Part shown: piece by piece, positions 208 through 55,384 of the stretch
Position numbering within the stretch: position 1 is the first letter of the stretch
Layout of the letters: every line of letters begins with the position of its first letter
Origin: Prorocentrum cordatum
Taxonomy: Eukaryota > Sar > Dinophyceae > Prorocentrales > Prorocentraceae
Assembly: GCA_963575745.1 (NCBI GenBank)
Contig: CAUYUJ010020545.1
Location: 30,001-94,000, forward strand
Reading direction: 5' to 3'
Length of the DNA: 64,000 bases
Made by a program: the position numbers and the translations under genes
Notes under the pieces: model-generated
Databases searched by the model: none
What the model was told of the DNA's origin: nothing
The model's input: only the letters and a program-made list of their open reading frames with translations

Positions 208-330
208 GTTGAAGTCCGAGTAGGGCTCTCAGAATTGAGAGTCCGCGTGATAGACCAGGCAAATCCGTTCACAATGAGGCCGAATGATGATGATGAGGAG
301 GAGGAGGCGGAGGAGGACGACGACGTCAGT

Positions 331-864
331 CGCCTGGCGCTGAACCCTTCGGGGCTCGTGCCAGGTGCGAGCAGCGCTGAACCCTTCGGGGCTCGTGCTA
401 CTCCAAGTGGGAGCGCTGAACCCTTCGGGGCTCGTGCTCCCAGTCACCTGGCGCTGAACCCTTCGGGGCTCGTGCCAGGTGCGAGCAGCGCTGAACCCTG
501 CGGGGCTCGTGCTACTCCAAGTGGGAGCGCTGAACCCTTCGGGGCTCGTGCTCCCAGTCACCTGGCGCTGAACCCTTCGGGGCTCGTGCCAGGTGCGAGC
601 AGCGCTGAACCCTTCGGGGCTCGTGCTACTCCAAGTGGGAGCGCTGAACCCTTCGGGGCTCGTGCTCCCAGTCACCTGGCGCTGAACCCTTCGGGGCTCG
701 TGCCAGGTGCGAGCAGCGCTGAACCCTGCGGGGCTCGTGCTACTCCAAGTGGGAGCGCTGAACCCTTCGGGGCTCGTGCTCCCAGTCACCTGGCGCTGAA
801 CCCTTCGGGGCTCGTGCCAGGTGCCAGCAGCGCTGAACCCTGCGGGGCTCGTGCTACTGAGTCG
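331..864. repeat. Tandem array of 14 UUCG-loop hairpins (114-bp higher-order unit)
   Basis: A core GCTGAACCC-TTCG-GGGCTCGT starts at 339, 376, 415, 453, 490, 529, 567, 604, 643, 681, 718, 757, 795 and 832. Three different core contexts make a 114-bp unit repeated almost five times. Each core is flanked by arms that differ between contexts but stay complementary: CCTGGC/GCCAGG, TGGGAGC/GCTCCCA and GAGCAGC/GCTACTC. The core itself closes on CCC(TTCG)GGG, or TGCG in copies 5, 11 and 14. Because 114 is a multiple of three, long frames are open on both strands; this follows from the periodicity and is not evidence of a protein. Confidence 0.9.
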
Positions 865-1117
865 TGTTGTACCGTCTTGATTATCATTCATACACTCATT
901 GTGCCTTGTGAATAAGGGGCCACTAACGCCAATTTTTTTTTTAGGTCCCGGGGCCCGCCTTTGAAAATCTGAAGATTTTGCATTGAAGCGCTGCCAGGGC
1001 ATTTCCAGCCACGAATTCCTGACGCGTTTCGTATGTTTTGTCTCGTTGATTTTTGTTGCACGGTATTTGGGGTTCCGGAGCATTGTTTCTCACTCCCGGG
1101 AGCCCTCCGGTGCCCGA
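865..1117. other. No feature recognised
   Basis: Non-repetitive sequence between the hairpin array and the GAT/GGA tract. I see no exon, RNA gene or repeat here. Confidence 0.4.
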
Positions 1118-1383
1118 CAAAAATGACGATGACGATGACGATGCTACGCCGAGGACGATGACGATATTACGCCGAGGACGATGAGGATGATGATGCGGAT
1201 GCTGATGCTGATGATGATGATGCCGATGCGGATTATGATGATGGTGATGATGATGAGGAGGAGGAATAGGGTGACGATGGTGATGCTGCCGATTATGCTG
1301 CTGATGATTCTGCTGATGATGCTGCTGATGATGAGGGAGGAGGAGGAGGAAGAGGAGGAGGAGGAGGAGGAGGAGGAGGAGGA
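1118..1383. repeat. Degenerate GAT/GAC tract passing into a GGA microsatellite
   Basis: GACGATGACGATG-type triplets (1118-1340, with two copies of a CTACGCCGAGGACGATGA-like motif) run into pure GGA triplets at about 1338-1383. Reading frames through it encode Asp/Met/Glu or Ser/Ile runs only. Confidence 0.85.
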
Positions 1384-1894
1384 ATGAGAAGTATGAGGAA
1401 CGAGGAGCGAGGAGCGAGGAGACATCAGGAAATCGTTCTCGCACGCTTTCTCCGAGCATATCTCGTGGCGGATTCTGAAGTGCCGCTTTGTCTACCGCGC
1501 TTGTCATATAATGCATCTTTGAAACCCCGACTCCGACGTCACCCCCAGGGGCGCGAAGATAATCGCGCCTCGCGCCTCGAGGCCTGGGCTGGAGGGCTGG
1601 GCATAACAGAAACGAGAGCCAGTGAACACATTTATGTATGGTGTGGGTTTTTTTATTTTCTCGGGGTGAAGCCGTGCACGAAACCCTATACATGTCAAGC
1701 GGCTCTGGGATCTCTAATCCAGACTTGCCCGAGGCCAGAGCATAACTCGCCTCCTCGACTCGCAGCTTCCCAGCCCGCTGAGCTCGGATCTCGGCCGACG
1801 GAATACACAGGGGCCCAAGCTTAGGAGGTGGGGTTAAAGTCGAATTCGGATAGAGGCTTCTCCTGATCCTACTACGCTGGGTGCCTAACCCAGG
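1384..1894. other. Unassigned stretch of about 500 bases
   Basis: Mixed-complexity sequence with short frames in several phases. No motif, exon signal or repeat was recognised. Confidence 0.35.
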
Positions 1895-2010
1895 ATAGAA
1901 GAGGAGGAGGAGGAGGAGGAGGAGGGAGAGGAGGAGGAGGAGGAGGAGGAGGAGGAGGAGGAGGAGGCGGAGGAGAATGAGGAGTAGCAGGAGGAGGGGA
2001 CGGAGGATAT
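1895..2010. repeat. GGA microsatellite
   Basis: Nearly uninterrupted GGA/GAG triplets with occasional GGAG interruptions. Confidence 0.85.
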
Positions 2011-2049
2011 TAAGGAGAGATTTTTGAGGCCTCCTGCGAGCCTCTTAGG

Positions 2050-2215
2050 GTCCGCACGGCGGCCGAAAGGCCACCGAAAGACTACCGAAATGCTACCGAA
2101 GGCTATTGGAGGGCTGCGGAATGCGACCGAAGGCTACGGAGGGCGACCGAAAGGCTACGGAGGGTACCGGAACGCTACCGAAGAGCTACCAGAGAGTTAC
2201 AGGCGAGCTGCCGCA
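2050..2215. repeat. Degenerate 11-12 bp repeat based on GCTACCGAAAG
   Basis: About a dozen imperfect copies of CTACCGAAAG/GCTACGGAGGG follow each other. Just downstream (2462-2530) lies a cluster of GTAGCACTAC/CGTAGC motifs with local inverted repeats, immediately 5' of the transposon gene. Confidence 0.7.
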
Positions 2216-2359
2216 AGATCGGCGAGGCAATCGAAAATCAAAAACTCTCCTTGTAATGATGTAGTGTTGTGTGTTGCTTGGGTGTGTGGGGGTATTCTAT
2301 GGAGATCGCCGCGGATGCGTTGAGTTGTTAGCATTGTTAGTGGAAGCTGTAACGTTGAA

Positions 2360-4358
2360 GTGCATTTCTATTGCAAATGTGTAGGCCTCAAACCACTAGG
2401 GAAATTTTCTTCTGCGAAGGGGGAAACGCTCGCAAATTTTCAAAAACGGTGTTTTTCACACCGCCGTAGCACTACAACGTGCTACGTAGCACTACGCAGC
2501 GCTACGGTTAAGATACGTAGCATCACAAGGGCGCTGTTTGGAGCTACGGGAGCAGATGCTGCGTTATATGTGCATCACCCCCATGAGCACCCGCCCCCCC
2601 CAACACAAGCATTACGAAGTGCTGCTACGACTAGTGCTATTACTACCACTAGCGAGCTGGCGAGCAGCCAACCAAGCGAATCCGTGTACGTAGATAGACA
2701 CGGTGCACAGCGATACCACGCTGCAGACGGCGAGCAGCGGCCACTGAAGAGTCTCCTTCGAAAGTACGTGAAGCAAGGTTATGGGCGACTTCATACAGTG
2801 GGCCCTTCTCTGCAGAAGATAACCAGGGAAGCTCGGTGCGCCGCTCTGGCTGGGATTCCAGGAGGCGTTTTAGAACTTGACATAAAGGTTGCGTTCTTCA
2901 GCTTGTTGGTTGTGGCCTTAAAGCGGCACGAGCAGATCTGCGTCGAGGCAGAGTTCCCACTGCTGTGCGACATCGCCAGCAACTGGGGCGGGTGGAAGAG
3001 TTTTGCCTCTGGGTACTTCGACGTCGGGGTGGACGTCGCCAAGAAGCTTCTCATCTCGGCGACCAGTCCCTACGGGCGGCAATCGCCAGATCCAGCGCAG
3101 CGGCCTGACTGGCTTCCGCATTTGGATTGCGTGCAAACAGAAGTATCGAATGCCTGTCGATTTCTTCTCGAGCACGACGCTCTTTATCAGGAAGTTGCGA
3201 AAGCAAGGCCTGAATGCAGCTCGCTCCACATCTTTCTGGGCGAGCTGGAGTGCCGGGTGATGATGAGCATGAAGCATATTTTAGAGGAAGCAGGGGCCGT
3301 GCCAATTTCTCTGGTCTACGACGGCATCTACTTCAGGCCAATGGGGCTTGACGTGCACGACGAGGGCTTCATCGGACTTGTGACTGCAGTCGAAGCCGAG
3401 CACGGCGTATCCTTGCATCTGAAAGACCTAAGCGGCGCGGAGATACCCTGGAGGAGTTCCGCTCCCGAGCCTGGAGAAGGGGCCCGAGGTCAGGGTGGCG
3501 CCCCTCCTTCGCCGCCGTACCACAACGATTTCTCTTCTCTCCTGGCGGCAGCTTGCGAGAAGTCGCAGCAGAAGCTCCAGGCTGTCCCCGGAGAAAATAT
3601 GTGCGCTGTGAGCGCGCTCGCCAATATGGATTTGGTTGCGGGGGGGCCGAGCCAGTCAAAGTTCGCCTGTGGACCATATTCTTACCGACAGTTGCAACAT
3701 ATTTATCCTTCTCTGGCGTTCCAAGAGGCGCAGCTGAGCGACGTGATCTGCGCCGACGCCGCCCACTTCTTCCTGTTGCACATTGGGGCGCCAGGAACTC
3801 GCGGCCACGCTGTTGGTCTTCGCGCCCACGGGGACTCGCAGCAGATGCTGGTGTTCGACTCGCACCAGGACTTCGTGATGCAGATTGGCGATGAGGCCTT
3901 GTGCGACCTGGTTACCCAATGGGACGAGGGCCGACGCCATGCTCGCCTGCTGCAAGTTACCGAAGACGGGCCTGTCGATGGCAACGCCGAGTCAGATTTG
4001 TTGGAATTGATTGCTGGCTCCTCTCGGCCGTGCGTGAAGAAGCCTGCGGGTCAAGGTTGCTTGAGGCGGCCCGCCGAAGCTCCGAGTTCCCCGACGCCCA
4101 AGCAAGGGCGGGCAAGGGCCGCCGCCCGCAGCCTGGTCGGGCGAACGGCAAAGGCGTCAGCGAAGTCTAAGGCATACAGGAACACGAAGTACGTGCGCCA
4201 CGGCAAGCCGACGACGAAGAGCAGGGGCGACCGCGACAAGTGGAGCATCGACCTTGAATCCATCTTGGAGATGCCTGACGATAAGCTCTACCGCCGGTGC
4301 ATCCGCGATAACATCCTGGACAACAAGGAGGGCAAGATGTGTCTTCACTGCTGCAAAG
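2360..4358 (+). CDS. Exon 1: polymerase-palm-like and papain-like protease domains
   Basis: The region around residue 144 reads YGRLHTVGPSLQKI, followed by R and then LELDIKVAF with Asp174. This matches the layout TGRL..PNLQNIP..R..D of family A DNA polymerases before catalytic motif A. A KKLLISATSPYG segment (Lys228/Lys229 to Tyr238-Gly239) resembles motif B (K..YG) of that superfamily, including T7-type RNA polymerases. LVYDGIYF (Asp321) sits where motif C (HDE/HD) belongs, preceded by ELECRVMMSMKHIL. Spacing A-B-C is 55 and 82 residues, somewhat compact. Further on, NMCAVSAL (Cys415), GHAVGL (His483) and VFDSH (Asp500) give a Cys-His-Asp order seen in papain-fold peptidases. A Lys/Arg-rich linker follows, then the first half of a zinc ribbon (Cys661, Cys664). 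The polymerase call is inference from motif order and could be wrong; the protease could also be an OTU- or Josephin-like deubiquitinase. Confidence 0.5.
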
Positions 4359-4473
4359 GTTTGGCGGCTGGGAATCAACGCAAACACGCTCGCTGCAGAC
4401 GGGGGGAGGGGGCTTGGGGATGAGGGGTCGCGAGGTTGGCGGGCGTGGCCGTTGATTCCCACTGCGCCTAGAG
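4359..4473 (+). other. 115-nt intron with terminal inverted repeats (introner-like)
   Basis: The donor is AAAG|GTTTGG and the acceptor is CCTAGAG|GTAGAC, both within a shared AGGT direct repeat. TGGGAATCAACG (4369-4380) is the reverse complement of CGTTGATTCCCA (4450-4461), with GGCG/CGCC extending the arms. Exon 1 otherwise stops at 4421-4423. Splicing restores the frame and places CLHCCKGRLG in continuity with the rest of a zinc ribbon. Confidence 0.75.
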
Positions 4474-5399
4474 GTAGACTCGGCTGTCTCCGCAAGGTGA
4501 AAGGCCGCGGCCTTCGGTACAGGTGCAACCGCAAGGGCTGTCAGAAGTTCACTGTTCCACATGCTCATCACCCCGTCTTCTCTACTGGGTGGGGGGCCAC
4601 GCATTCGCCTTTCAAGAAGCAGGTGGCCATCTTGTTCAGCATTCTAGCAGGAGGAAGCAATCCCACGATTCGCAGATTGATCTCGTCCGCAAACCACAAG
4701 GCGATCGAAAGGATCTCGATTGCCGTGAAGAAGCAGCGCGAGAAGTTTGTCAAGAAGCGAGAGAAGACGATCGTTTTCGGGGTTGGCAACGACCGCGACT
4801 GGAGGGACGCTGAAGCAGATGAAGCAGTCTTTGGAAGGGCAGCCAAGGCGGACGACCCCGAGAGCGTGGAATGGGAGCAATGGGCGGGCATCGTGGAGCG
4901 AGGCCGGCCCGAGTCGCTGGTGCTGGCGAAGACTACCGCGGCTCCCACGGTGAAGAGGGCTCCTGGGCCAGGCGCAATCAGGAAGGTCGATTGGGCGCCT
5001 CTGGCAAACCGCTACTTGAAAGGTAGGCGCATTATTTTGCATACGGACCGCGCTAAGAGCTACGCCATGCGAGTTGAGGGAGTGTTGCACGATTCAGTGC
5101 GGCACTGCAAAAAGAGAGTGAAAAAGAATGGCAAGTGGGTGTGGATGAAGCCGTGCTACGCGCGCTTGGCAACTCATAAGCTTCCATGTGGTAGGAAGTT
5201 GCGCACAAAGGCCGGCTCCCAGGTTATCGACAGCGCTTGGAAATACATCCGCTCAACCTTGGGAGGCCAGACAATGGTGCCCAATTCTGAGACGGCCGCC
5301 ACTGCAATTCGCAGCGCCCAGTGGCTTTACTGGCACAGGGGCAAAGACCTTTGGGCCGAGATGGGATCCACGTTCTGTGCCAACTTTTGGCGGAGGTAA
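4474..5399 (+). CDS. Exon 2: IS1595/Merlin-like (ISXO2-type) DDE transposase
   Basis: This encodes the second half of a zinc ribbon (RYRCNRKGC, Cys684 and Cys689 of the spliced protein), followed by a helical region and the catalytic core. The first acidic site is in EADEAVFGR (Asp782/Glu783, at 4818). The second is in ILHTDRAKSYA (Asp858, at 5046), where the usual pattern is hydrophobic-TD...Y. The third is in VIDSAWKYIR (Asp919, at 5229), which takes the place of the family's IEGFW..LK. Upstream, WEQWAGIVERG fits the W.G.VERG strand of the family. Asp rather than Glu at the third site is the notable deviation. The transposase would cut and rejoin DNA ends. The stop is TAA at 5397-5399. No indels are visible, so the copy may be recent. 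Confidence 0.8.
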
Positions 5400-5488
5400 A
5401 TTGTTACTGCAAACTTGGACAGCGATGGTGTCCTCGTACTTCTTTGCTTTGAAAAGGGCTTCAAGGTAGATCTCAGAGGGGGGCACGC

Positions 5489-5525
<37 letters not shown>

Positions 5526-5620
5526 CATACATATATATATATATATATACATACATATAAACATATATGTATATGCACAGCATATATATAATACAAGCAG
5601 ACCTGTATATACATAAATAA
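5489..5620. repeat. TA/ACATA microsatellite
   Basis: Long runs of TATATA interspersed with CATATA and TACATA, immediately 3' of the transposase stop codon and about 90 nt of unique sequence. Confidence 0.9.
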
Positions 5621-9622: not shown

Positions 9623-9689
9623 GTTTGGGCTCCAGCATCGTATTCCGCTGGTTCCAGAGGCTATACAGTTACGACCGGGTTGCGGTCGT

Positions 9690-11540
9690 CGTCTTTCCCG
9701 GAAAGGGCATGAGCCTACGGTTCCTTTTTTCTCGGAAAGTGCATGAGCCCAGGGTTCTCTTTTTCCCGGAAGGGACATTGGCCCAGGATTCTTGTTTAGA
9801 TATGGCTTCCCCCTGGCCTCGACTTGCGTAGGGCCAGCGCATTTGAATGGCTATAAATAATGAGGTCGCGCAGGGCCGGCAAATTCTAAAGTTGCGAATG
9901 TCCCGCGCGAAACGCTGTTTCTCGAGATTCCGATCGATAACATACGTTCTAAAGTACACATTGTCGTGTGTTGCTGATATCTCGAGCGACACGCTTGTTC
10001 TGCAGAATTTGTTGGAGATGTCTCGAGCGAAACGCATGATTTGTGTTATATGTTGCTCCTCTCCTGGGGGCCAGAATTCAGAGGATGTCGCAGGTGAAGT
10101 GCTTGTTTTCACGTGCCCAGGTCTTGAGGATGTCTCGAGCGAGACGCTTGGTTTCACGCGTCCTGGTTGCCCAGGCAGATGTCTAGCATGAGGATTTGTA
10201 GAGGATGGCTCGAGTGAGACGCTTGGTTTCACGTATCCACGTCGCCCAGGCGGATGTCTAGCATGAGGATGTGTTGAGAACGTCTCGAGCGAAACGTTGG
10301 TTTTCGCGCTCAGGTCGCCCAGGCGGATGTCTAACATGAAGATGTGTTGAGGCTGTCTCGAGCGAGACGCTTGTTTTCACGCGTCCAGGTCGCCCAGGTG
10401 GATTTCTAACATGAAGATGTGTTGCGGATGTCTCGAGCGAACTGTTTCTTCTCACGTGTCCAGGTCGCCCAGGCGGATGTCTAGCATGAGGTGAAGAAAA
10501 CGTCTCGAGCGAGACGCTTGGTTTCACGTATCCAGGTCGCCCAGGCGGATGTCTAGCATGAGGGTTTGGTCAGGATTTCTCGAGCGAACCGCTTGATTTC
10601 ACGCGAAACAGTTGCCCATGCAGATGTCTAGCATGAGGAGGTGATGAGAACGTCTCGAGCGAGACGCTTGGTGTTCACGTGCCCAGGTCGCCCAGGCGGA
10701 TGTCTAACATGAGGATGTGTTGAGGGTGTCTCGAGCGAGACGCTTAGTTATACGTGTCCAGGTCGCCCAGGTGGATGTCCGTGTGTTGAGGATGTCTCGA
10801 GCGAAACGCTTGTCGCGGTAGAGTGAATCGCATTCCAACCCCACCCGTCCGTGGGGCGTCCCCGTGCGCGCTGGCGCGTCCCCTCGCGCGTCTCTTGCGA
10901 CGTTCTGGCGTGACGTGCCTTGGCACGCCTCCTAGCACGCCACTCAGCGTGGCACGTTCCCTGGCCCGTCCTCTGTCGCGATTCCTGGCTCGTCCCCAGG
11001 CGTTTCCCCTGCCCGTTCCGTGGCGCGCCCCTTGCAACGTCCTTTGGCATGGCGTCCTCTGGCCGTCCCATGGCACGCGACTTGGCACGTCCCGTGGCAG
11101 GTCCCTGACACGTTCAGGGCACCTCCCCACAATGATACGTCCCCTGACACGCCCCCTGGCGCATCCCCTATTGCGCCCCTAGTACATCCTGTGGCGCGTA
11201 CGTGAGCCTGTGCCCCGTGTCGTGTCGCGTTCCTTGTCGGAGCTGAGTCGGATTTTGAGGTCGAGTTGATTGAACGTCCCGCACGTTTCCACTTCAACTA
11301 GCGCTGGGGCAGCTACCATGTGCTCAGGCAGCTCGGGCTTAAGATCCAGACAAGTGCGGTCACGACACGGATGCAAAGGAGGACTCGATCCACAACGCTA
11401 TGGAGCACAATCGCGGCATGGCACATCGCAATTCAGCACGGCGCAGCACAGCACCGCCCTGGGCACGGTACATCCAGATCGATACACTCAGCACTGCAAT
11501 TGCCCGTCTAGGTTCTTTTCTGGGTTCGTGCGTCGTTCGT
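9690..11540 (+). mobile_element. E1 modular repeat, copy 2, ending at the propeller gene
   Basis: Leader (about 9690-9900), roughly 12 R1 units (9895-10810), R2 CACGTCC-like units (10855-11220), then the palindromic tail. CGGATTTTGAGGTCGAG (11249-11265) pairs with GCTCGGGCTTAAGATCC (11331-11347). The tail ends at GGGTTCGTGCGTCGTTCG (11523-11540). The start codon of the next gene lies only 23 bases further on, so this element forms its immediate upstream region. Confidence 0.75.
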
Positions 11541-11562
11541 GTTGCACAGGCCAGGGTCCCCA

Positions 11563-13882
11563 ATGGCCGCTCGCGCAGTCTGGGCCGTGGCGCAGCAGGT
11601 GTCGCTGGCGGGGGCGATCGCCGTGGCCCTCGACCGGGAGGCGGGGGCCGGGCACGGAGGGGGGCAGGGCAGATCGGCCGCCCGCCTCGGCGTGATGAGC
11701 CGGTCCGGGGTCACGCGGTACAGCGCCCTGCAGATTGGGAGGGCCCGCAGCACCGAGGGGGCCTTCTGGCCAGACTCCAGCAGCCGCGGCAACTCGCTCT
11801 ACGCCGGCGCGGCGGACCTCACGGACAACGTCTCGTGGGGGTGGCACCACCCGAACGGGGTCTACAGCACCATCCCGGTCGGAGCGCCTCTCATCGACAG
11901 CGAGCTGAACATTTACGTCGGGTCGGACGACGCCATCCGGAAGTTCGACGTGTCCGGGGAGTTGCTCTGGAGCTACGCCCCCCGCGGCCAGCTCGCCGCC
12001 GCCCCGTCCATCGCCATCAGCTCGGCGTCTAGGCGCATGGCGGTGGCCCCCACCGAGGTCTCCGCCGAGGAGGAGGCGGCCCTCCGGCCAGACTGGGCGC
12101 AACAGGGGGACGACCCCAAGGTCCCGTACGAGACCTTCTTCGCCCAGGTCAAGGTCGGCGACCGCCTTAAGGTGCGCCCGGGCAAGGCGTTTGTCGGGGA
12201 TGGCGGCAAGGACCTCTACAGGGACGGCGACCAGGGCAGGATCGTCAAAGTCCTAAGGCAGGGAGGCGACGGCGAGCGGGTGGTCATCCAGTGGCCGCGC
12301 ACCGGCCACGAGAGCGTCGCGAGCCTCGCCTCCCTGGGCAAGAGGTTCGTACGCGTCGCCAGCGAGGTCAGTGTGGCCACCCTGCCGCCCATGCTCGTCG
12401 GGAGCACCACCTCTGGCTACGTGTTCGCGGTCGGGCTCAGCGACGGGGAAGAGATCTGGGCGACCCAGGCCTCCGAGCAGATCGCGGGCGTCAAGGGGGC
12501 CGTTGGCGCCAAGGACGGGGTGGTCGTGGTCGCGACCAACCGCTGCACGGACCGTTACTGCTATAGGTACCGCAACCAGACGAACCCACTCACGCCGAGC
12601 AACTCCATCGTGAGGGGCCTCAGCGCAGCGGACGGCAGCGCCCTCTGGTCCTACAGGACGCGGTCGCCCGTGTGGAACATGGTGCCGCAGTGGGGCCCCA
12701 ACGACACCGTCATGTTCCAGGACTTCGAGGCCAACGCGTACTGCCTCAACTTCAAGACCGGCGCGCTGGTGTGGAAGTTCCGCGCCTCCAAGGGCATGGG
12801 CACCTACACGAACGCGGCCGCCGTGTACGACGCAGCGTCCGAGCGGTTCTTCTCCATGGGCGCCAAGGAGTACGAGCACAAGTATTGCAATCCGTACCCC
12901 GCGCCAGGTGTCCTGCCCCACTGCAACACGTGGCCCGGCTCCGCAGGCATGATTTACGGCCTCAACGCGACTTCGGGCAGGAAGCTGTGGGAGTTGGAGA
13001 CCCGCGAGCCGCCGGCGAGCGGCGCCGTCGGCTTGCTGAACAGCCCCCCGGGCCACACCAGGTTGGTGGTCACGCTGGGCTACAACTGCAGGTACAACTC
13101 CCCCTCCGGCATCCTGTCCGTCGACCCGCACAATGGCCACCTCCGGTGGGAGAGGGAGGGCCCGACGCTGTGGTCCGGCATGTGCGCGGGGGACAAGGAA
13201 GGCGGCGACATCCGCAGGGCGATGGGCGGCCGCGCCGCGTGCGTGCCGAACTCCTGGTCCAGCCCAGTCATCGACTCCAACGGGGACCTCTACGTCGGCA
13301 ACCAGGTGGAGGGTTCCTCTGAAGGGCTTAGGCGACCCGTGGTCCTCCTCCTCCTCCTCCCTCCTCCTCCCTCCTCCCTCCTCCTCCTCCTCCTCCTCCT
13401 CCTCCTCCTCCTCCTTCTCCCTCCTCCTCCTCCTCCTCCTCCTCCTCCTCCTCCTCCCTCCTCCTCCTCTCCCTCGTCCTTCTCCCCCTCCTCCTCCTAC
13501 TCCTCCTCCTCCTTCTCCTCTTCCTCTTCCTCTTCTTCTTCCTCCTCCTCCTCCTCCTCAACCTCCTCCATCTCCTCCTCCCCCTTCTCATGCTCCGCCT
13601 CCTCCTCCTCCGCCTCCTCCTTATCCTCCTCCTACTCCTCTCGGGTCGCCTACGGCCCTGGGGGAAACCGTGCACAACCAGGTGGGGGTGCTGCAGAAGT
13701 GGGGGTCTCCCACGGGGCGGACCCTCGACGTCCAGCTGCTCTCAACCCTGACCACGGGGGTGGCGTTCCAGGACTCGGCAATCGCGGTCGGGCCCGGCAT
13801 CATGGCGGTGTCGACGTGCACCTCCCTCATCGTCATGCGGACTTCAGAGGGGGACAACTTCACGCTTCCGCTCGAGTACTGA
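11563..13882 (+). CDS. PQQ-repeat beta-propeller protein (quinoprotein-dehydrogenase-like fold), two exons
   Basis: Exons are 11563-13305 and 13682-13882, giving about 647 residues. The N-terminus (MAARAVWAVAQQVSLAGAIA) is hydrophobic and could be a signal peptide. Propeller blades of the type NIYVGSDDAIRKFDVSGELLW, YVFAVGLSDGEEIWA, AYCLNFKTGALVWKF, IYGLNATSGRKLWEL and DSNGDLYVGNQ show the G..xALD..tG...W signature of PQQ repeats. Between blades 1 and 2 (residues about 190-255) lies an SH3/KOW-like insert (VKVGDRLKVRPG..YRDGDQGRIVKV). I see no enzyme-specific active-site signature, so a dehydrogenase activity should not be assumed; a binding or scaffold role is equally possible. ATG 11563 (CCCCAATGG) was preferred over 11539 because AG at 11548-11549 (TTGCACAG) would suit trans-splicing of the leader. 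The stop is TGA at 13880-13882. Confidence 0.85.
13306..13681 (+). other. 376-nt GT-AG intron with direct and inverted repeats around a TCC microsatellite
   Basis: A 10-bp direct repeat AACCAGGTGG spans both splice sites (13300-13309 and 13676-13685). Inside, AGGGCTTAGGCGACCCG (13323-13339) is nearly the reverse complement of CGGGTCGCCTACGGCCCT (13642-13659). The space between is TCC/CTT microsatellite (13340-13640). Splicing CAG|GTG to CAG|GTG keeps frame and continues the last propeller blade (YVGNQ then VGVLQKWG). Confidence 0.85.
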
Positions 13883-15149
13883 GCCTGCGAGGCGAGAGCA
13901 GGCGGAGGGGAGGAGGAGGTAATGAAGGAGAGAAGAATGAAGAGAAGGAGGAGGGGGGTCGTCAACTGATGTTGTAGACGCCCATCTTCGTGCAGCATTG
14001 CTTTCCTACCTCTCTTCATCCTGCTGATGCGTGAGCAGGAGTCATCAGGGCCCTTACTACGCCGAGTTGGCCCAGGCTTTCATTTCAGGCCTGGCAGCCA
14101 ATCTCCAGGACAGCCTCGCGCAGCGATCAACATCGCGAGGCACGGGAGGGCCCTGTGATCCCCAACCATTTGCATTGTGTCATTCCTTTTCATGTTGAGT
14201 TTGTCTTCATGAAGACAGTCGCCATCTGTACTTTTTGGGGCCGCGTGCGCATACAGCGAGCGGCACGTCGGACGTCCGTGCTGATAGGACGGCACCCGGG
14301 CCGCCGCTTCACCTTTTTGTCCGTCTTTCTTTCGTGTTTTGTCTGCGCTTCAGTCCCACACTCACTGTGGCCGCCACGGAATTGCGTTTCGCGCGTGCCC
14401 ACTCCAAAAATGTGCCCCCCCTTTCGGATCCTCGTTACCTAACGCGGTCCGCAGACCCCCGCTTTCCTTCGTGAGAAGAGGGTGCGGAGAGTCTTCGCAC
14501 AACCCCAGCTACATAACGACGTCCGGAGATCCTTGGAGTCGATGTTTTCTGATAATACATGGAGAAGATAGCGTTTGGCGTGCCCGCTCGAGGATGGCGC
14601 GTCCTGCGCGCAGGAATTTCGAGGATGTCTCGAACACCGCGCTTGTCTTGCAGAAGGACTGTCCCCAGAAGGGCAGAGGCCCAGGGTTCTCTTTTGGTAG
14701 GTCAGCCTGTCCCCAGGTCCCACGTACGACGAGGGCCGCCCCTCCCATCAAAACAGGAGGCGCGTAGACGACGCATGGGAGCAGACATGGGTACGAGACC
14801 AATGGATTTACGCACTTGTTGCGTTGATTATTATGTTAGGGGGAAACAAGCCTACCTCGCTTTTGACCACCCTCGCCCAAGAGATACCAAGCGATGCCAA
14901 ACTACGGCCTGTACTTGTCAGGCCGCTTGACGAGAAGGCACGTGGTATGACTTGGTTTTTCCTGGAAGCGAAAGCGGGGTAGGTAGTTCACGCTCTGATG
15001 TGTGCATTTTGAATTTGATTATGCATCGTCTCCGCTAGATCTGCACAGTGCCTTGTTGTACGCATGCATCGCTGGCAACAAAACCATGTCATAGACATAC
15101 CGTCGTCGAAGAGGGCCAGCTGATTGAACTCTGAGGATGCCCCTGCGCG
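13883..15149. other. Downstream region of the propeller gene; no gene recognised
   Basis: Probable 3' untranslated sequence (a purine-rich stretch at 13890-13970), then unique sequence. A fragment of the E1 leader (CCCAGAAGGGCAGAGGCCCAGGGTTCTC) lies at about 14664-14695, and a GAGGATGTCTCGAAC fragment precedes it at about 14620. No exon was identified. Confidence 0.4.
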
Positions 15150-16100
15150 AGACGCTGGCTTTTCCCGGAGAGGGCGTCGGCCCAGGGTTCTCTTTTAGCT
15201 GTTCACCCCCGGACTCGACTTGAGACGGGCCCGCGAAATTCTGCTGCGATCAATAACGAGGTCGCGTGGGGCCGGCGAATTGAAAGTTTGAGGATATCCC
15301 GAGCGAACGCTGGTTTTTGAAATTCCGACGGGTAGACCACAGGGTAGAGTAAGCATTCCCGTGTGTTGCGGACGTCTCGAGCGAAATACTTGTTTTGCAT
15401 AATGTGTTGAGGATGTCTCGAGCGAAACGCTTCTTTGGGAGACTTCCAAGAACCTGGACGCCCAAGGATGCCCCAGGGGGCCCTGGAAGTGCGGACGCAG
15501 CGTAATTTTCGAGGGGTCGTGTGGCCCTGGGATTGTGGACGCAGCTTATTACCAGGGATCGCGGCCCAAGAAAAGCGGACGCAGCGTACTTTACAATGGA
15601 TCGTGCCCTGGGAGCGTGGACGCAGCGTAATTTATTGGGGATCGTGGCCCAGGGAGAGCGGACGCAGCGTAATTTATCATGGATCGTGGCCTTAGGAGCG
15701 CAGACGCATTGTAATTTAAGATGGGTCCTGGCCCTGGGTCAGGGACGTCCCGCGACATGTTCCCTGACGCGTTCCCTGGCACGTTCCCTGGCGCGTCGCC
15801 TGGCGCGTTCCCTGTCACGTTCCGTGTCGCGTCCCCTGTTCAGTCCCCCTGGTATTTCGCGCGGCGCGTCCCTTGGCACGTCCCGTGACACGTCCAGTGG
15901 CACGTTCCGTAGCGCGTCCCCTTGGCACGTCCCGCTGTGCGTCCCCATGGCACGTCCCCTGGCACGTCCCTTGGCGCGTCCCTTGGGACGTTCCGCGGCG
16001 CGTCCCCCTGGCATGTCCCCCTGTCAATTAGCTCTGGGGCAGCTACTATGTGCTAAGGCAGCTCGAGCTTGAGATTTAGATCAGTTCGGTCAGGACTCGG
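15150..16100 (+). mobile_element. E1 modular repeat, copy 3 (truncated tail)
   Basis: Leader at about 15155-15290, two to three R1 units (15290-15445), an unrelated 42-bp array, R2 CACGTCC units (15745-16015), and the first 85 bases of the tail. The tail breaks off at TCAGGACTCGG (about 16100), where a GGCCGTCTTGG array takes over. Confidence 0.7.
15480..15735. repeat. 42-bp tandem repeat, about six copies
   Basis: GCGGACGCAGCGTAATTTA-type units with GGATCGTGGCCCAGGGAG between them, spaced about 42 bases apart. Confidence 0.8.
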
Positions 16101-18394: not shown

Positions 18395-19732
18395 TGTGTT
18401 TTTTCCCGGAAAGGGCGTAGGCCCAAGGTTCTCTTTTAGCTGTTTACCCCCGGGTCTGACGGGAAGAGGGCCGGAGGATTTCTTTTACGATAAATAACGA
18501 GTGGGAAGAGGGCCTGCGAATTAAAATTTGAGGATGTCCTTAGCGAAACGCTTGTTTTCCAGAATTTGTTGAGGAGGTCTCGAGCGAAACGCTTGTTTTG
18601 TGTGATAGATTGTTCTCTCCTGGGGACCAGAATTTAGAGGATCTCTCAAGTGAAATGCTTGGTTTCACGTGCCCAGGTCTTGAGGATGCCTCGAGCGAGA
18701 CGCTTGGTTTCACGCCTCCAGGTTGCCCAGGCAGAGGTCTAGCGCCAGGATTTGTTGAGGATGTCTCGAGCGAGACGCTTGGTTTCACGCGTCCTCGTCG
18801 CCCAGGCGGATGTCTAGCATGAGGAGGTATTGAGGAAGTCTCGATCGAGATGCTTGTTTGCACGTGTCCAGGTTGCCCAGGCGGATGTCTAGCATGAGGA
18901 TGTGTTGAGAATGTCTCGAGAGATACGCTTATTTTCACGTGTCCAGGTCGCCCAGGCGGATGTCTAACATGAAGATGTGTTGAGGATGTCTCGAGCGAGA
19001 CGTTTGCTTTCACGTGTACAGGTCGCCAAGGCGGATGTCTAGAATGAGGAGGTGTTGAAAACGTCTCGAGCGAAACGCTTGTTTTCACGTGCCCAGGTCA
19101 CCCAGGCGGACGTCTCACATGAAGATGTGTTGAGGATGTCTCGAGCGAACTACTTGTTTTCACGTGTCCAGTTCGCCCAGGCGGATGTCTAGCATGAGAA
19201 TGTGTTGAGGATGTGTTGAGCGAAACGTTTGTTTTCACGTGTCCAGGTCGCTCAGGCGGATGTCTAGAATGAGGATTTTGACAGGATGTCTCGAGCGAAA
19301 CGCTTGTCCCCAGCACGTTCCGTAGCGCGTCCCCTTGGCACGTCCTACGGTGCGACCCCATGGCAGGTCCCCTGGCACATCGCCTGGTGCGTCCCTTGGG
19401 ACGTTTCGCGGCGCGTCCTCCTGTCATGTCCCCCTGTCAATTAGCTCTGGGGCAGCTTCTATGTGTTCAGGCAGCTCGAGCTTAAGATCCAGATCAGTTC
19501 GGTCAGGACTCGGATGCAAAGGAAGACCCGATCCACGACGCTATAGAGCACAACAGCGGCATGGCACATCGCAATTCAGCACGGTGCAGCACAGCACAGT
19601 CCTCGGCACGGTACATCAAGATCGATACAATCAGCATTGCATTTGCCCGTCACCCAATCAGGTGTCTTTGAAAACGTTGCCACGCGTTACATTTCTATTC
19701 CTTTCCGGGTTCGTGGGTTGATCATGTTTTAG
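18395..19732 (+). mobile_element. E1 modular repeat, copy 4
   Basis: Leader (18395-18540), ten or so R1 units (18540-19310), a short R2 stretch (19315-19430) and a full tail (19437-19732) ending GGGTTCGTGGGTTGATCATG. Confidence 0.8.
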
Positions 19733-44751: not shown

Positions 44752-46402
44752 TTTGTTTTACCAGAAAGGGCAGAGGACCAGGGCTCTTTTGTAGATGTTG
44801 TTTACATCCGGCCTCGACTTGAGGTGGGCCGACGCAAGGATTCTGGTATAAATAACGAGAAAAGGATGGGCCCGCGGATTTGTTTGAGGATGTCCCGAGC
44901 AAAGCGCGTGTGTTGCATACTTTGTTGAGGACGTCTCGAGCGAATCGATGTTTTGCAGAGTTGGGGGAGGTTCAAGCGAAACGCTGTGTCCAGGGTGCTC
45001 AGGCAGATTTCTGACATGAGTAGTTGTTGAGGATGTGTTTAGCGAAACGCTTGTTTTCACATGTCCAGGTCGCCAAGGCGGATGTCTAACATGAAGATGT
45101 GTTGGGGATCCCTCGAGCGAAACGGTTGCTTCGACGTGCCCAGGACGCCTCGGCGGATGTCTAACATGAGGATGTGTTGAGGATGTATCGAGCGAAACGC
45201 TTGTTTTCACGTGTCCAGGTCTCCCAGGCGGATGTCTAGCATGAGGTTTTCTTGCGGATGTCTCGAGTGAAATGATTGGTTTCACGTGCCCAGGTCGCCC
45301 AGGCGGATGTATAATATGATGGTGTGTTGGGAATGTCTCGAGCGAAACGATTGTTTTAACGTGCCCAGGTCGCCCAGGCGGATGTCTACCTTCAGGATTG
45401 TTTGAGGACGTCTCAAGCGAGACGCTTGTTTTCACGTGCCCAGGTCGCCCAGGCGACTGTCTAGCATCAGGATTTCTGGAGCATGTCTCGAGCGAAACGC
45501 TTGTCGCAGTAGAGCGCGTCGAAGTTCAACCCCACCCGTCCGCGGGGCATCCCCTGGCGCGCTGGCGCGTCCCCTGTGAGGCCGTCTCGTGCGCGTGACT
45601 GCACGGCGTGCGCGTTACAGAGCGTGGCCCGCTGTTGGCCCATTCGCCGAGGTGTTCCCCCGAAGTGACGTTGGACAACCGTTTCTATGGCGCGCCTTTT
45701 GCGACATTCTGGCGTGACTTGCCCTGGCACGTCCTCTGGCACGCCCTTTGGCGTGGCACATTCCCTGGCTCGTCCTCTGTCGCGTTTCCTGGCTCGTCCC
45801 AAGGGGTTTCCCCTGTCCGTTCTGTGGTGCGCCCCTCACCGCGTCCCCTGGCATTACGTCCTCGGGCCCGCCCCATGGCCCGCCCCGTGGCATACGTTAT
45901 GGCACGCCCCGTGGCAGGTCCAAGACACGTCCAGGGCATGTCCCCTAATACGTCCCCTGAAACGCCCCCTGGCGCATCCCCTGATGCCCCTGGCACATTC
46001 TGTGGCACCTTCGTGAGCCTGTGCCCCGTGTCGTGTCGTCCCTTTGGGGAGCTGAGTTGGATTTTGAGCTCGAGTTGAATGAACGTCTCGCGCGTTTCGG
46101 CTTCAACTACATAGCTCTGGGCCAGCTGCAACTTGCTCAGGCAGCTCAAGCTCAAGATCCAGATCAGTTTGGCCAGGTCTTGGATGCTAAGGAGGACTCG
46201 ATCCACAAAGCTACAGAGCACAATCGCGGCATGGCAAACCGCAAGTCAGCACGGGACAGCACAGCACAGCCGTTGGCACGGTACCTCAGGTCGATACGTT
46301 CAGCATTGCGATTGCCTGTCGCCCAATCAGGTGTCTTGAAATCGTTGCCATGTTTCACATTTTTATATTCCTGGGTTCGTGAGTCGATCATGTTTGCATT
46401 GT
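44752..46402 (+). mobile_element. E1 modular repeat, copy 6
   Basis: Leader (44755-44885), about eight R1 units (44885-45505), R2 CACGTCC-like units (45535-46010), palindromic tail arms GGATTTTGAGCTCGAGTTGA (46048-46067) and CAGCTCAAGCTCAAGATCCA (46142-46161), then the tail to GTGAGTCGATCATG (46379-46392). Confidence 0.8.
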
Positions 46403-51884: not shown

Positions 51885-53060
51885 CTGGGCTTCGTGCTGC
51901 CCCCCGCCTGAGCGCGGCGGCGCCCCGCCCGGAGCCCGCAGGGTTGCCCCTGCGGCCTGGCCCGCGGGGCTGTCCCCGACGGCGGCGCGATTTCGCTGTC
52001 GGAGAACACGCCCCTGTCAGGCGCGGCGGCGAGGGCGCCGAGGAAAACCTGCGCGCGCCCCTGCCAGGAGGAAGGAGTGGCGCAGGAGGAGAACGAGCGG
52101 GGCGGCGATGAGGAGAAGGAGGAGATGGAGGTGGGCAAGGGAAAGGCCGAGGAGGAGGATGAACGCGAGGAGGAGAGGGAGGAATTGGATAGGGGGCGGC
52201 GGACGAGGAGGAGGCGGGAGAGGCAGATGATGAAACATGCAACGAGTAAGACGAGAAGGAACAGGATGATGATGAGGAGGAGGAGGAGGAGGAAAAGGAG
52301 AACAAGGACGGAGAGGGCGGAAGAAAGCCTCCGCCAAACGAAGTAGAAAAGGCCAGGGGCAAGTTAAATATATTACCGAGTTGCGGTATACCGTCGGAGT
52401 ATTTTCCTCTATCTCGCTTTATTTTCAATTTGGCAGGCCAGGGGGACGATGATCCACCTCCTTGCCCGACTGCTTACTTGCGAGCGTCCCCATGTAGCTT
52501 CATTGAGAGAGGATCGCTCCATGTTTGTCCACGGGGTCAGGCTAGTTTGGTGGCGTGTCACCGCCGTTGATCATGGAGTCCTCGCTGAACGCAGCTATCC
52601 AGCGCTCTCTCCCAAGACGGCCAAAAGCCGCCGAAGACAACCGAAAACAACCACAGACCGTCCGAATACCGCCGAAGACTGCACCGAGCCGATGGGCAAC
52701 ACGGGGCCCATGGTCGAAAACATACGGTCGGGGCGCTGGTCAAGGAATGTGCCTGGGAAACTTCAATCCGCGGGGGTTGGGGGGGCCCTTGCCCGACGAG
52801 GGCGGCAGTGATGTCCACGACCAGTCCACGACTGGAGATCCTCTGGTTTCCAGCTCCTGGACCTTTTGTCTAGATGCCGTGTTGCTGCTGCTGGCCCCGC
52901 GGCCGCGCCGCGCGCCCCTGGGAACGACCCGTTCCCCTGAGCAGCCCCGGCCCGCCTCTTCCTCCCCTTCGCTCGTCGTTTCGTTGCCTCCTCCCCACCC
53001 TCTTGCATGGTGGCTCCATGCGTTTCACGGCAGCCCGCTTCGCTTTTTCGCCAGCGCAGT
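51885..53060. other. No gene recognised; GA-rich tract
   Basis: GAGGAGAAGG-rich low-complexity sequence at 52085-52330, then unique sequence. Confidence 0.4.
52735..52875 (+). repeat. Dispersed repeat, copy 1 of 2
   Basis: GGAATGTGCCTGGGAAACTT, GACGAGGGCGGCAGTGATGT and TCCAGCTCCTGGACC parallel 53722-53835 in order and spacing. Confidence 0.7.
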
Positions 53061-53064
53061 GATT

Positions 53065-53235
53065 CTGGCTGGGGAGGAAGAGGGGGAGGAGGAGGAGGAG
53101 GAGGAGGAGGAGGAGGAGGAGGAGGAGGAGGAGGAGGAGGAGGGAGGAGGGGAGAGGAGGAGGGGAGGAGGAGAGGAGGAGGAGGAGGAGGAGGAGGAGG
53201 AGGAGGAGGAGGAGGAGGAGGAGGAGGAGGAGTGT
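53065..53235. repeat. GGA microsatellite
   Basis: About 170 bases of GGA with few interruptions. Confidence 0.95.
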
Positions 53236-53397
53236 GGATGCTTCCGCCGCAACCTATCTGAGCCCTCCGGCGCGAGTCCCCCCTCCCGGAGCAGGCGTCG
53301 CCCCCGTCGTCTCGGGGCGGGACATGGTCTGGGACGGGCGCCGCTGCGTGTGGCTCGGGAGAGTGGCCGCGCTGAAGGACGCGGGGTGGTGGTGGGG

Positions 53398-53525
53398 GAG
53401 GAGGAGGAGGAGGAGGAGGAGGAGGAGGAGGAGGAGGAGGAGGAGGAGGAGGAGGGCGGGGGAGGGAGGAGGGAGGGAGGAAGGAGGATGGAAGGATGGG
53501 GGAGGGAGGGAGGGAGGGAGGAGGG
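53398..53525. repeat. GGA/GGGA microsatellite
   Basis: GGA triplets passing into GGGAGGGA. Confidence 0.93.
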
Positions 53526-53719
53526 GGTCGCCTCCCTGTTCCCAGACGTGCTCGCGTCGTGAGAACATCCCGACGGGAGGCTCTTGGTCGTTTTCGGCCC
53601 TCCGTAAGCCCTCGCCGGGCCCCGGGGCTGTGAGACAACGTGTCGCGGTGGGGAACTGGCATTGGAGAAGCGGAAGAGGGTCGGGTTTTCTGGGCACCCG
53701 TACCTTGGGGGCGTCGATT

Positions 53720-53845
53720 CAGGAATGTGCCCAGGAGGCTGCAGACCCTGGGGGATTCCTTGTTTGATGAGGGCGGCGGTGATATCCATGGCCAAGCCTC
53801 CATTGGAGCTCCCACCAGCTTCCAGGCCCTGGATTCCCCATCGAA
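53720..53845 (+). repeat. Dispersed repeat, copy 2 of 2
   Basis: GGAATGTGCCCAGGAGGCTG, GATGAGGGCGGCGGTGATAT and TTCCAGGCCCTGGA correspond to the copy at 52735-52875. Both lie about 130-250 bases from GGA tracts. Confidence 0.7.
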
Positions 53846-53849
53846 GGGC

Positions 53850-54265
53850 CCCGTGTCCAAAGGCCCTCCCGCACCGTGCTGAGCAGCCCAGGCGTCGCCC
53901 GCTTGGGCTCCCTGTGCGGGTGCTGCCCGGGGTGCTCCTGGCCCGGGGTGTCCCCTGCTGCTTCCGCGCCGCCCCGGGGCACCTGCGGCCCCCCCGTGGG
54001 CCTCGCGCGGGGCGCTCTGGAGGCCAGCCCGGGCGAGGGAAGGTCACGGGCTGGACTGCGCCGACCCTCGCGCGTGAGCTTCCCACGTGGCGTCGCGCGT
54101 GAGCGCCCTCTCCTCCACGCGGCGTGCGACGCTGGCGTAAGGCCGCCGAGTCGGCGTACGTAAGATCCGTGTCCTCTCGTCGTGCATCCGGGCCTCTCCC
54201 CAGACATCCTGGGAACACCTTCCACCAGCACCTGTGGCAGGACCCGACCTGTTGATGGGGGGCAG
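53850..54265. other. No gene recognised
   Basis: GC-rich sequence without a recognisable exon. Confidence 0.35.
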
Positions 54266-54267
54266 GA

Positions 54268-54378
54268 CGATGATGAGATTGATGCTGATGCTGGTGCTGA
54301 TGCTGATGATGATGATGAGGAGGAGGAGGCGGAGGAGGCGGAGGAGGAGGAGGAGGAGGAGGAGGAGGAGGAGGGGGA
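54268..54378. repeat. GATGCT/GAT then GGA microsatellite
   Basis: GATGCTGATGCTGG passes into GGAGGAGGCGGA. Confidence 0.9.
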
Positions 54379-54509
54379 AGATCGAACATGGAGTTTGATC
54401 GTCGTCCTTTGGTTTCTATGGGACCACGGGGAGGTCTCTCCAGAGGCCTTTGGTGGCCCGTTGGGGACGTCGATAGACATCTGGAGATCCTGAGGGACCT
54501 CCGTTGACC

Positions 54510-54940
54510 TCGGGAGGGAGGGAGGGAGGAGGAGGAGGAGAAGGAGGAGGAGGAGGAGGCGGGAGGCGGGAGGGGGAGGGGGGAGGAGGGAGGGAGGGAA
54601 GGAGCGAGGGAGGGAGGGAGGGAGGTGGGGAGGTGGGGAGGGGAGGGGGGGGGGAAGGGGGGAAGGGGGGGGAGCGGGGTGCAGCGTTTGGGCGACATCT
54701 CGAGGGGCGGGGGAGGGATGTGACAAGAGGGGCGTGGGGAGCCCTCAGGAAGCTCAGCAAGCCAAATGCGGAGGAGGAGGAGGAGGAGCAGGAGGAGAAG
54801 GAGTAGGAGGAGGAGGAGGAGGACGAGAAGGAGGGGAGACGGAGGAGGTCGAGGAGGAGGACGAGGAGGAGGAGGAGGTCGAGGAGGAGGAACGAGGAGG
54901 AGGAGGAGGAGAGGAGGAGGAGGAGGAGGGGACTCCCGCT
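54510..54940. repeat. GGGA and GGA microsatellite complex
   Basis: GGGAGGGAGG, GGGGAGG and GGAGGACGAGG tracts with a short unique island at 54675-54765. Confidence 0.88.
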
Positions 54941-55384
54941 TTAGGTCAGGGGGGCCTTCCTCGTGGCCGGGGCTCGCGGTGGCTAGGAACGCCCCTTCGT
55001 CGCCCATCTGGCTGTAGTCCCTTCTCCTCCTGAGGGTTGGGGTCAGGACCGCTTCTGGGCGGGAATACAAGGCTGGGGTTGCTGCGCGCGCTCGGTGGGG
55101 GTTGCTCAACGACCGCACCGTGTCAGTTCGGAGCCCACGTGCCGAGACATCAGCGCAAGCGTTCGAGCGCAGCGCATTGCAACAGCACAGGAACCACGGT
55201 CGGGAGCCTTGGCTTAACGTGTCGCGCCGCCAGGTCTGGCCCACCACGTTTCGGCGTGCCACGCGAACCACGGCCAACCGGAATCAAACGGAATCAGTAT
55301 GTGGGTTCCCCGAAGATGTATCCCCTTTGAAAGGGAGTCGGGGTAAGTTTGGAGGCTCTCCCAAAGTGAACCGATCTCCTTCCC
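54941..55384. other. No gene recognised
   Basis: Unique sequence; nothing assignable. Confidence 0.35.

Follow-up and report, generated by a model that had tools for sequence, protein, structure and literature searches.

Self-synthesising DNA transposons are few, and in eukaryotes they have been associated with virus evolution and with the pairing of a family-B polymerase and a retrovirus-like integrase. Polintons, or Mavericks, are large eukaryotic transposons that pair a DNA polymerase with a cysteine protease and an integrase, and casposons are prokaryotic elements that combine a Cas1 integrase with a family-B polymerase. Polymerase and integrase are described for Polintons in PMC4642659, and casposons are classed as self-synthesising in PMC4046053. 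Bacterial TV-Pol enzymes, according to Iyer et al. (2008, PMC2579912), occur in proposed replicative transposons, sometimes beside IS630 or IS605 transposases, may adjoin RNase H-fold transposases, and are not universally linked to a helicase. Merlin-related proteins have been reported in Symbiodinium and other dinoflagellates, those of Symbiodinium microadriaticum being 181–445 amino acids long; in the text of that report "helicase" is absent and "polymerase" occurs once, as RNA polymerase II (PMC8101967). No description of a helicase, polymerase, peptidase and Merlin transposase in combination was found in the open-licence literature. Here we describe a locus of the dinoflagellate Prorocentrum cordatum that, judged from its sequence, is probably a copy, shortened by an internal deletion, of a Merlin/IS1595-type DNA transposon that encodes its own replicase. 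It lies in a stretch of 64,000 nucleotides (the window; GenBank assembly GCA_963575745.1, contig CAUYUJ010020545.1, positions 30,001 to 94,000), here contig C19696 of the 4.13-Gb genome.

A sequence-only reading of the window had joined 2360–4358 to 4474–5399 (+ strand) into a frame of 974 codons plus stop, interrupted by a 115-nt intron. The frame and the intron (4359–4473, +, GT...AG) are borne out, as are the positions it gave for D174, K229, Y238, D321, C415, H483 and D500; the intron has identical length and ends in 8/8 near-identical genomic copies, the window included. Many alternative splice choices also leave the frame open, and it is homology that selects this one: removal of the intron restores a CxxC...CxxxxC zinc ribbon, which runs without a break in the related proteins P0003, P0006, P0007 and P0008. 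The window protein is 56% identical to P0003 and 40% identical to P0006, in each case over 98% of the query, and its closest named-source proteins are from P. cordatum (92% and 95% identity). The stop-free run in the window frame is 699 codons, compared with 453 for the longest run among 60 simulated 64-kb sequences (first-order Markov). Frame length alone is nevertheless weak evidence, because the window has two stop-free stretches longer than this run, one of 821 codons (11512–13974, +) and one of 752 (53028–55283, minus). As the alignments have it, homology, rather than length, is what carries the case for a real protein.

The beginning of the frame fared differently. Homology to P0003 and P0006 starts only at 2720–2732 (~2720 for P0003). 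Window 327–2721 aligns to 2689–5077 of another genomic copy, C14253, and window 2719–5509 to its 12549–15341; ~7.5 kb of C14253 is absent at this junction, where three bases (CGC, window 2719–2721, read directly) are common to both sides. Because that DNA is missing here, codons 1 to ~122 are 5' element DNA put in frame by a deletion and do not belong to the natural protein. A natural N-terminus at 2360 is rejected, since sister copies show the deletion junction near 2720, and an intron border at that point is rejected on the same genome copies. What stands of the sequence-only reading is the polymerase–peptidase–transposase array; what falls is its natural start, and it had missed a helicase as well as the terminal inverted repeats (TIRs), both described below.

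The 5' transposon part (1–2721, +), taken as non-coding, is 98.1%–100% identical in its main aligned pieces to C14253 and C11292, and to C2636 up to window 1380; it includes tandem repeats of ~114 bp around 327–858, seen as 114-bp offsets in the sister-copy alignments. The first coding exon (2726–4358, +; residues 123–667) holds the polymerase, the peptidase-like domain and the first half of the zinc ribbon, and is delimited by homology to P0003 and P0006 and by seven sister copies. The second (4474–5399, +, stop at 5397–5399) encodes the IS1595/Merlin-like transposase. Over these two coding stretches the seven near-identical copies, which with the window form subfamily A, have 98.6%–99.7% DNA identity, and at least 69 matches, window included, occur in the genome. 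By these comparisons the window copy has lost internal DNA from a transposon that reaches 14.5 kb in its longest copy.

The ends of the element point the same way. The 3' TIR, AGGTAGATCTCAGAGGGGGGCACGC, lies at 5464–5488 (+) and is followed by an AT-rich microsatellite flank (5489–5574, +) comparable to the flanks of sister copies. The corresponding ends of C14253, GGGAGCCCCCCCCTCTGAGATCTACCT at the 5' end and the complement of GCGTGCCCCCCCCTCTGAGATCTACCT at the 3' end, pair at 25/27 positions. No TIR pair was found within the window alone, because the 5' end of this copy is situated upstream of it. Both TIRs (~27 bp) were located in six of the eight subfamily A copies examined, window included; these measure 14,546, 8,342, 4,957, 5,086, 7,322 and 6,077 bp, the differences in length stemming from differing internal deletions. 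Exact 8-bp target duplications (ATATATTT, AAATAAAT and ATTTATTT) border three of the six two-ended copies, in low-complexity flanks, and at C9824, one of the other three, the 12 bases outside one end are identical to the 12 outside the other, with no exact 8-bp match.

The transposase carries an intron-split zinc ribbon, C661-x2-C664 ... C684-x4-C689 (4340–4541, +, in the spliced frame), conserved in P0003, P0006, P0007 and P0008, and three acidic residues, Asp782 (4818–4820), Asp858 (5046–5048) and Asp919 (5229–5231, all +), invariant in 9/9 aligned sequences. The NCBIfam IS1595 model matches six of the nine members (best 3.2e-7), scores noted for this model being 20–24 bits compared with a cut-off of 75, and the Pfam IS1595 domain (PF12762) matches one of the nine at 0.13; the window member matches neither model. 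Taken with the TIRs and the 8-bp duplications, the IS1595 model matches make a distant Merlin/IS1595 relationship the best reading. The sequence-only reading had named a zinc ribbon and acidic core of this type. The likeness to Merlin/IS1595 (ISXO2-like) elements lies in this transposase architecture, the TIRs and the 8-bp duplications. The differences are that in this family the transposase is the last domain of a protein more than 1,400 amino acids long, which also has helicase, polymerase and peptidase-like domains, and that the third acidic residue is Asp, whereas in Merlin/IS1595 it is Glu.

Proteins P0009–P0013 (Prorocentrum, Symbiodinium natans, Effrenium) belong to the same transposase clade and carry a P-loop ATPase of another type, with the motif GxxxxGK[ST]P (e.g., residues 294–301 of P0012), and no part matching the polymerase; their sequences suggest that there is a further sort of Merlin-like element equipped with an ATPase.

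The helicase is absent from the window copy; a D5-like helicase is linked to the polymerase in sister copies and relatives. P0003 has a Walker A motif, GEGGDGKG, N-terminal to its polymerase, and the P4-type primase C-terminal helicase model matches P0003 (E 1.6e-4), P0006 (2.5e-4) and P0014 (1.4e-3). The helicase region of the relatives also matches PHROGs named DNA primase, and sister subfamily A copies match this region upstream of the polymerase. All four domains lie in single frames of P0003 (1,467 amino acids) and P0006 (1,698 amino acids). They do so as well in subfamily B, three copies of which have stop-free frames of 1,474–1,483 codons in which each of the 11 motifs sought is present. 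The three represent two insertions, C18189 and C16384 being counted as one because their flanks are common to both; P0003 is assigned to this subfamily because it is ~92% identical to its copies. The 5' TIR was not located in the three B copies, and fragments of C13211 produced no alignment that passed the thresholds applied, one of them holding a B-like inverted-repeat sequence. The more divergent P0007 and P0008 retain polymerase, peptidase-like region and transposase, and a protein search centred on the polymerase and peptidase of P0014 matched only P0014, P0003 and P0015. The host of the polymerase-bearing form is established for P. cordatum alone, despite the divergent relatives P0006, P0007, P0008, P0014 and P0015. 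Frames of 2,431 and 2,461 codons were set aside; one of them crosses unread bases.

C18189 (G000:C18189:1-16000) and C16384 lie within a 99.9% identical duplicated region that continues for 5 kb or more past the 3' side of the element and is, on this identity, a recent segmental duplication. Subfamily B has an additional upstream frame of 664 codons (605 in C18189). The upstream element frame at L028:2446-4437 (664 codons) and L015:8311-9303 contains apparent repeated units of a Cys/His-containing domain with no Pfam match at curated level, and on visual inspection its end looks similar to the part that precedes D5-type helicases on their N-terminal side.

The domain assigned to a family-A (TV-Pol-like) polymerase spans 2777–3451 (+). 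In a VIA-align comparison of its AF2 model the palm/fingers fold of family A was found, all 50 of the 50 matches listed being family-A polymerases, and its best match in BFVD is the DNA replication protein of Zamilon virophage; the polymerase-like N-terminal domain of the sequence-only reading is thereby given structural backing. Of the conserved TV-Pol features, the Arg hairpin and both palm Asp are present: Arg143 (2786–2788) and Asp174 (2879–2881) are invariant in 5/5 aligned rows, and Asp321 (3320–3322) is kept in 4/5, P0015 having Gly where its similarity ends. The fingers RxxxK motif is absent, Lys228 (3041–3043; all + strand) being present in 5/5 rows with Val, Val, Lys, Ser and Lys at position −4; a Microcystis-phage TV-Pol candidate likewise lacks the Arg of this motif. 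In sequence searches of PDB neither the window protein nor the palm profile found a match up to E 10, and six rows returned for a full-length profile (E 0.12–0.91) were taken as chance. Bacterial TV-Pol elements differ from this family, which is eukaryotic and spliced and would make a single polyprotein in which helicase and peptidase-like domain are joined to an IS1595-like transposase.

In Microcystis phage LMM01 a protein annotated as hypothetical (L002:22749-24266, minus) has TV-Pol-like motifs and adjoins transposase genes. With tblastn it is found in nine phage records including its own (eight named Microcystis and one Cyanophage) and in two plasmids. When prokaryote genome contigs were scanned using the phage TV-Pol candidate as query, no relative was confirmed.

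Between polymerase and transposase lies a papain-like cysteine-peptidase-like domain (3572–3964, +) with Cys415 (3602–3604), His483 (3806–3808) and Asp500 (3857–3859, all +). That it is a deubiquitinase-like or inactive papain-fold domain, and not a protease that processes the polyprotein, is possible if doubtful: the three residues are kept in 7/8, 8/8 and 8/8 subfamily A copies, the Cys and His also in P0003, P0006 and P0014, and a protein laid out as a polyprotein would need to be cut.

The family thus described has ~27-bp TIRs, 8-bp target duplications in AT-rich DNA, observed lengths of up to 14.5 kb, and a D5/superfamily-3 helicase, TV-Pol-like polymerase, peptidase-like domain and zinc-ribbon DDD transposase, all in one open frame in one subfamily. 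If it is a transposon with its own replicase, the four-domain protein would be a polyprotein that its own peptidase-like domain cleaves; helicase and polymerase would prime and copy the element, and the transposase would recognise the inverted repeats and insert the copy. Having lost its helicase, the window copy would be movable only with help in trans from fuller relatives. That internal deletions vary from copy to copy is consistent with incomplete copying or with gap repair. A self-synthesising transposon with a family-A-like polymerase and an ISXO2-type transposase, delivered as a polyprotein, is what the sequence-only reading had proposed as a possibility, and the anatomy of the family supports it.

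Several observations weigh against this interpretation. The Pfam scan of the window's two frames gave no match, the helicase and IS1595 model scores are far under curated cut-offs, and the peptidase fold match is weak. The AF2 model has a mean pLDDT of 60 and a pTM of 0.50, and the profile comparison with PolA, suggested in the sequence-only reading, came out non-significant (palm against E. coli PolA in hhalign, E 0.15), as did that with the Microcystis-phage candidate (E 0.16), in which the Arg hairpin and first Asp are in register. P0003 and subfamily B, being ~92% identical, are not independent witnesses, and the helicase frame of C14253 and C2636 shifts near P0003 residues 184–209 (intron or damage). 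The other three of the six target sites, in AT repeats, have no exact 8-bp duplication. Private changes among the eight recent subfamily A copies comprise 30 replacement and 2 silent in exon 1 (polymerase and peptidase) and 14 and 5 in exon 2; since replacements outnumber silent changes in both, individual recent copies are without visible constraint.

Membership in the Polintons is rejected on the family-A fold of the polymerase, where theirs is a protein-primed family-B enzyme, and on the IS1595-like transposase, where theirs is a retrovirus-like integrase; no integrase match was found in the frames scanned. The family differs further in its presumed single polyprotein and in target duplications of 8 bp, those of Polintons being 5–6 bp, and a Pfam scan of nine frames, at sequence level only, found no capsid or packaging ATPase. 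We lean, with some reserve, towards a eukaryotic class of self-synthesising transposon whose polymerase and transposase are unrelated to those of Polintons: Merlin-type, with a four-domain polyprotein, abundant in one dinoflagellate genome, with divergent relatives, and perhaps linking simple TIR transposons to virophage-like replicons.

The element could instead be an ordinary Merlin transposon whose helicase and polymerase serve only donor-site gap repair or priming, and not the copying of a free element. Cut-and-paste needs no more than transposase, TIRs and 8-bp duplications, and transposases of the same clade (P0009–P0013) occur with the different ATPase and no matched polymerase. We consider this unlikely, however, as palm and transposase remain joined in relatives as divergent as P0006, and the polymerase and peptidase region is, by codon comparison, under purifying selection between subfamilies A and B (dN/dS 0.246 over 520 codons, dS ~1.0; silent sites of the transposase are saturated).

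A further alternative, to which we give little credence, is that the element is a Polinton-like virus or a relative of virophages in integrated form, with the Merlin-like transposase as integrase and capsid genes lost, unrecognised or elsewhere. As the literature describes them, virophages and Polinton-like viruses have TV-Pol and superfamily-3 helicase as a replicase, to which virophages add a cysteine protease (PMC3671162; PMC12220804; PMC4642659). The family likewise has a TV-Pol-like polymerase and a superfamily-3 helicase in one protein, its best BFVD match is that virophage protein, and its longest copy falls inside the 14–40 kb given for Polinton-like viruses (PMC12220804). Yet the helicase here precedes the polymerase, the reverse of the virophage order, and the transposase is IS1595-like and not a tyrosine recombinase or RVE integrase (same three sources). 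No virion protein of any kind was matched in the nine-frame Pfam scan, and viral contigs scanned with palm, second palm type, transposase and helicase queries yielded no relative. A chance fusion or gene-model artefact joining unrelated genes, which the 122 N-terminal codons of the sequence-only frame indeed are, is extremely improbable and is rejected for the polymerase–peptidase–transposase part, whose order is the same in the eight near-identical copies (window included), subfamily B, P0003, P0006, P0007 and P0008.

Elsewhere in the window, dispersed repeats with similar translated units of the SLETFSTHPHARHPPGRPGHVK type (9672–10376, 18543–19097 and 44761–45525, all minus) are probably a non-coding repeat family.

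If a Merlin transposon does carry a superfamily-3 helicase and a virophage-type polymerase, self-synthesis would have arisen more than once, from different parts. Such elements would also be a possible transposon source (or sink) of the TVpol–helicase replicase of virophages, and the family may add to the growth in DNA of a very large dinoflagellate genome.
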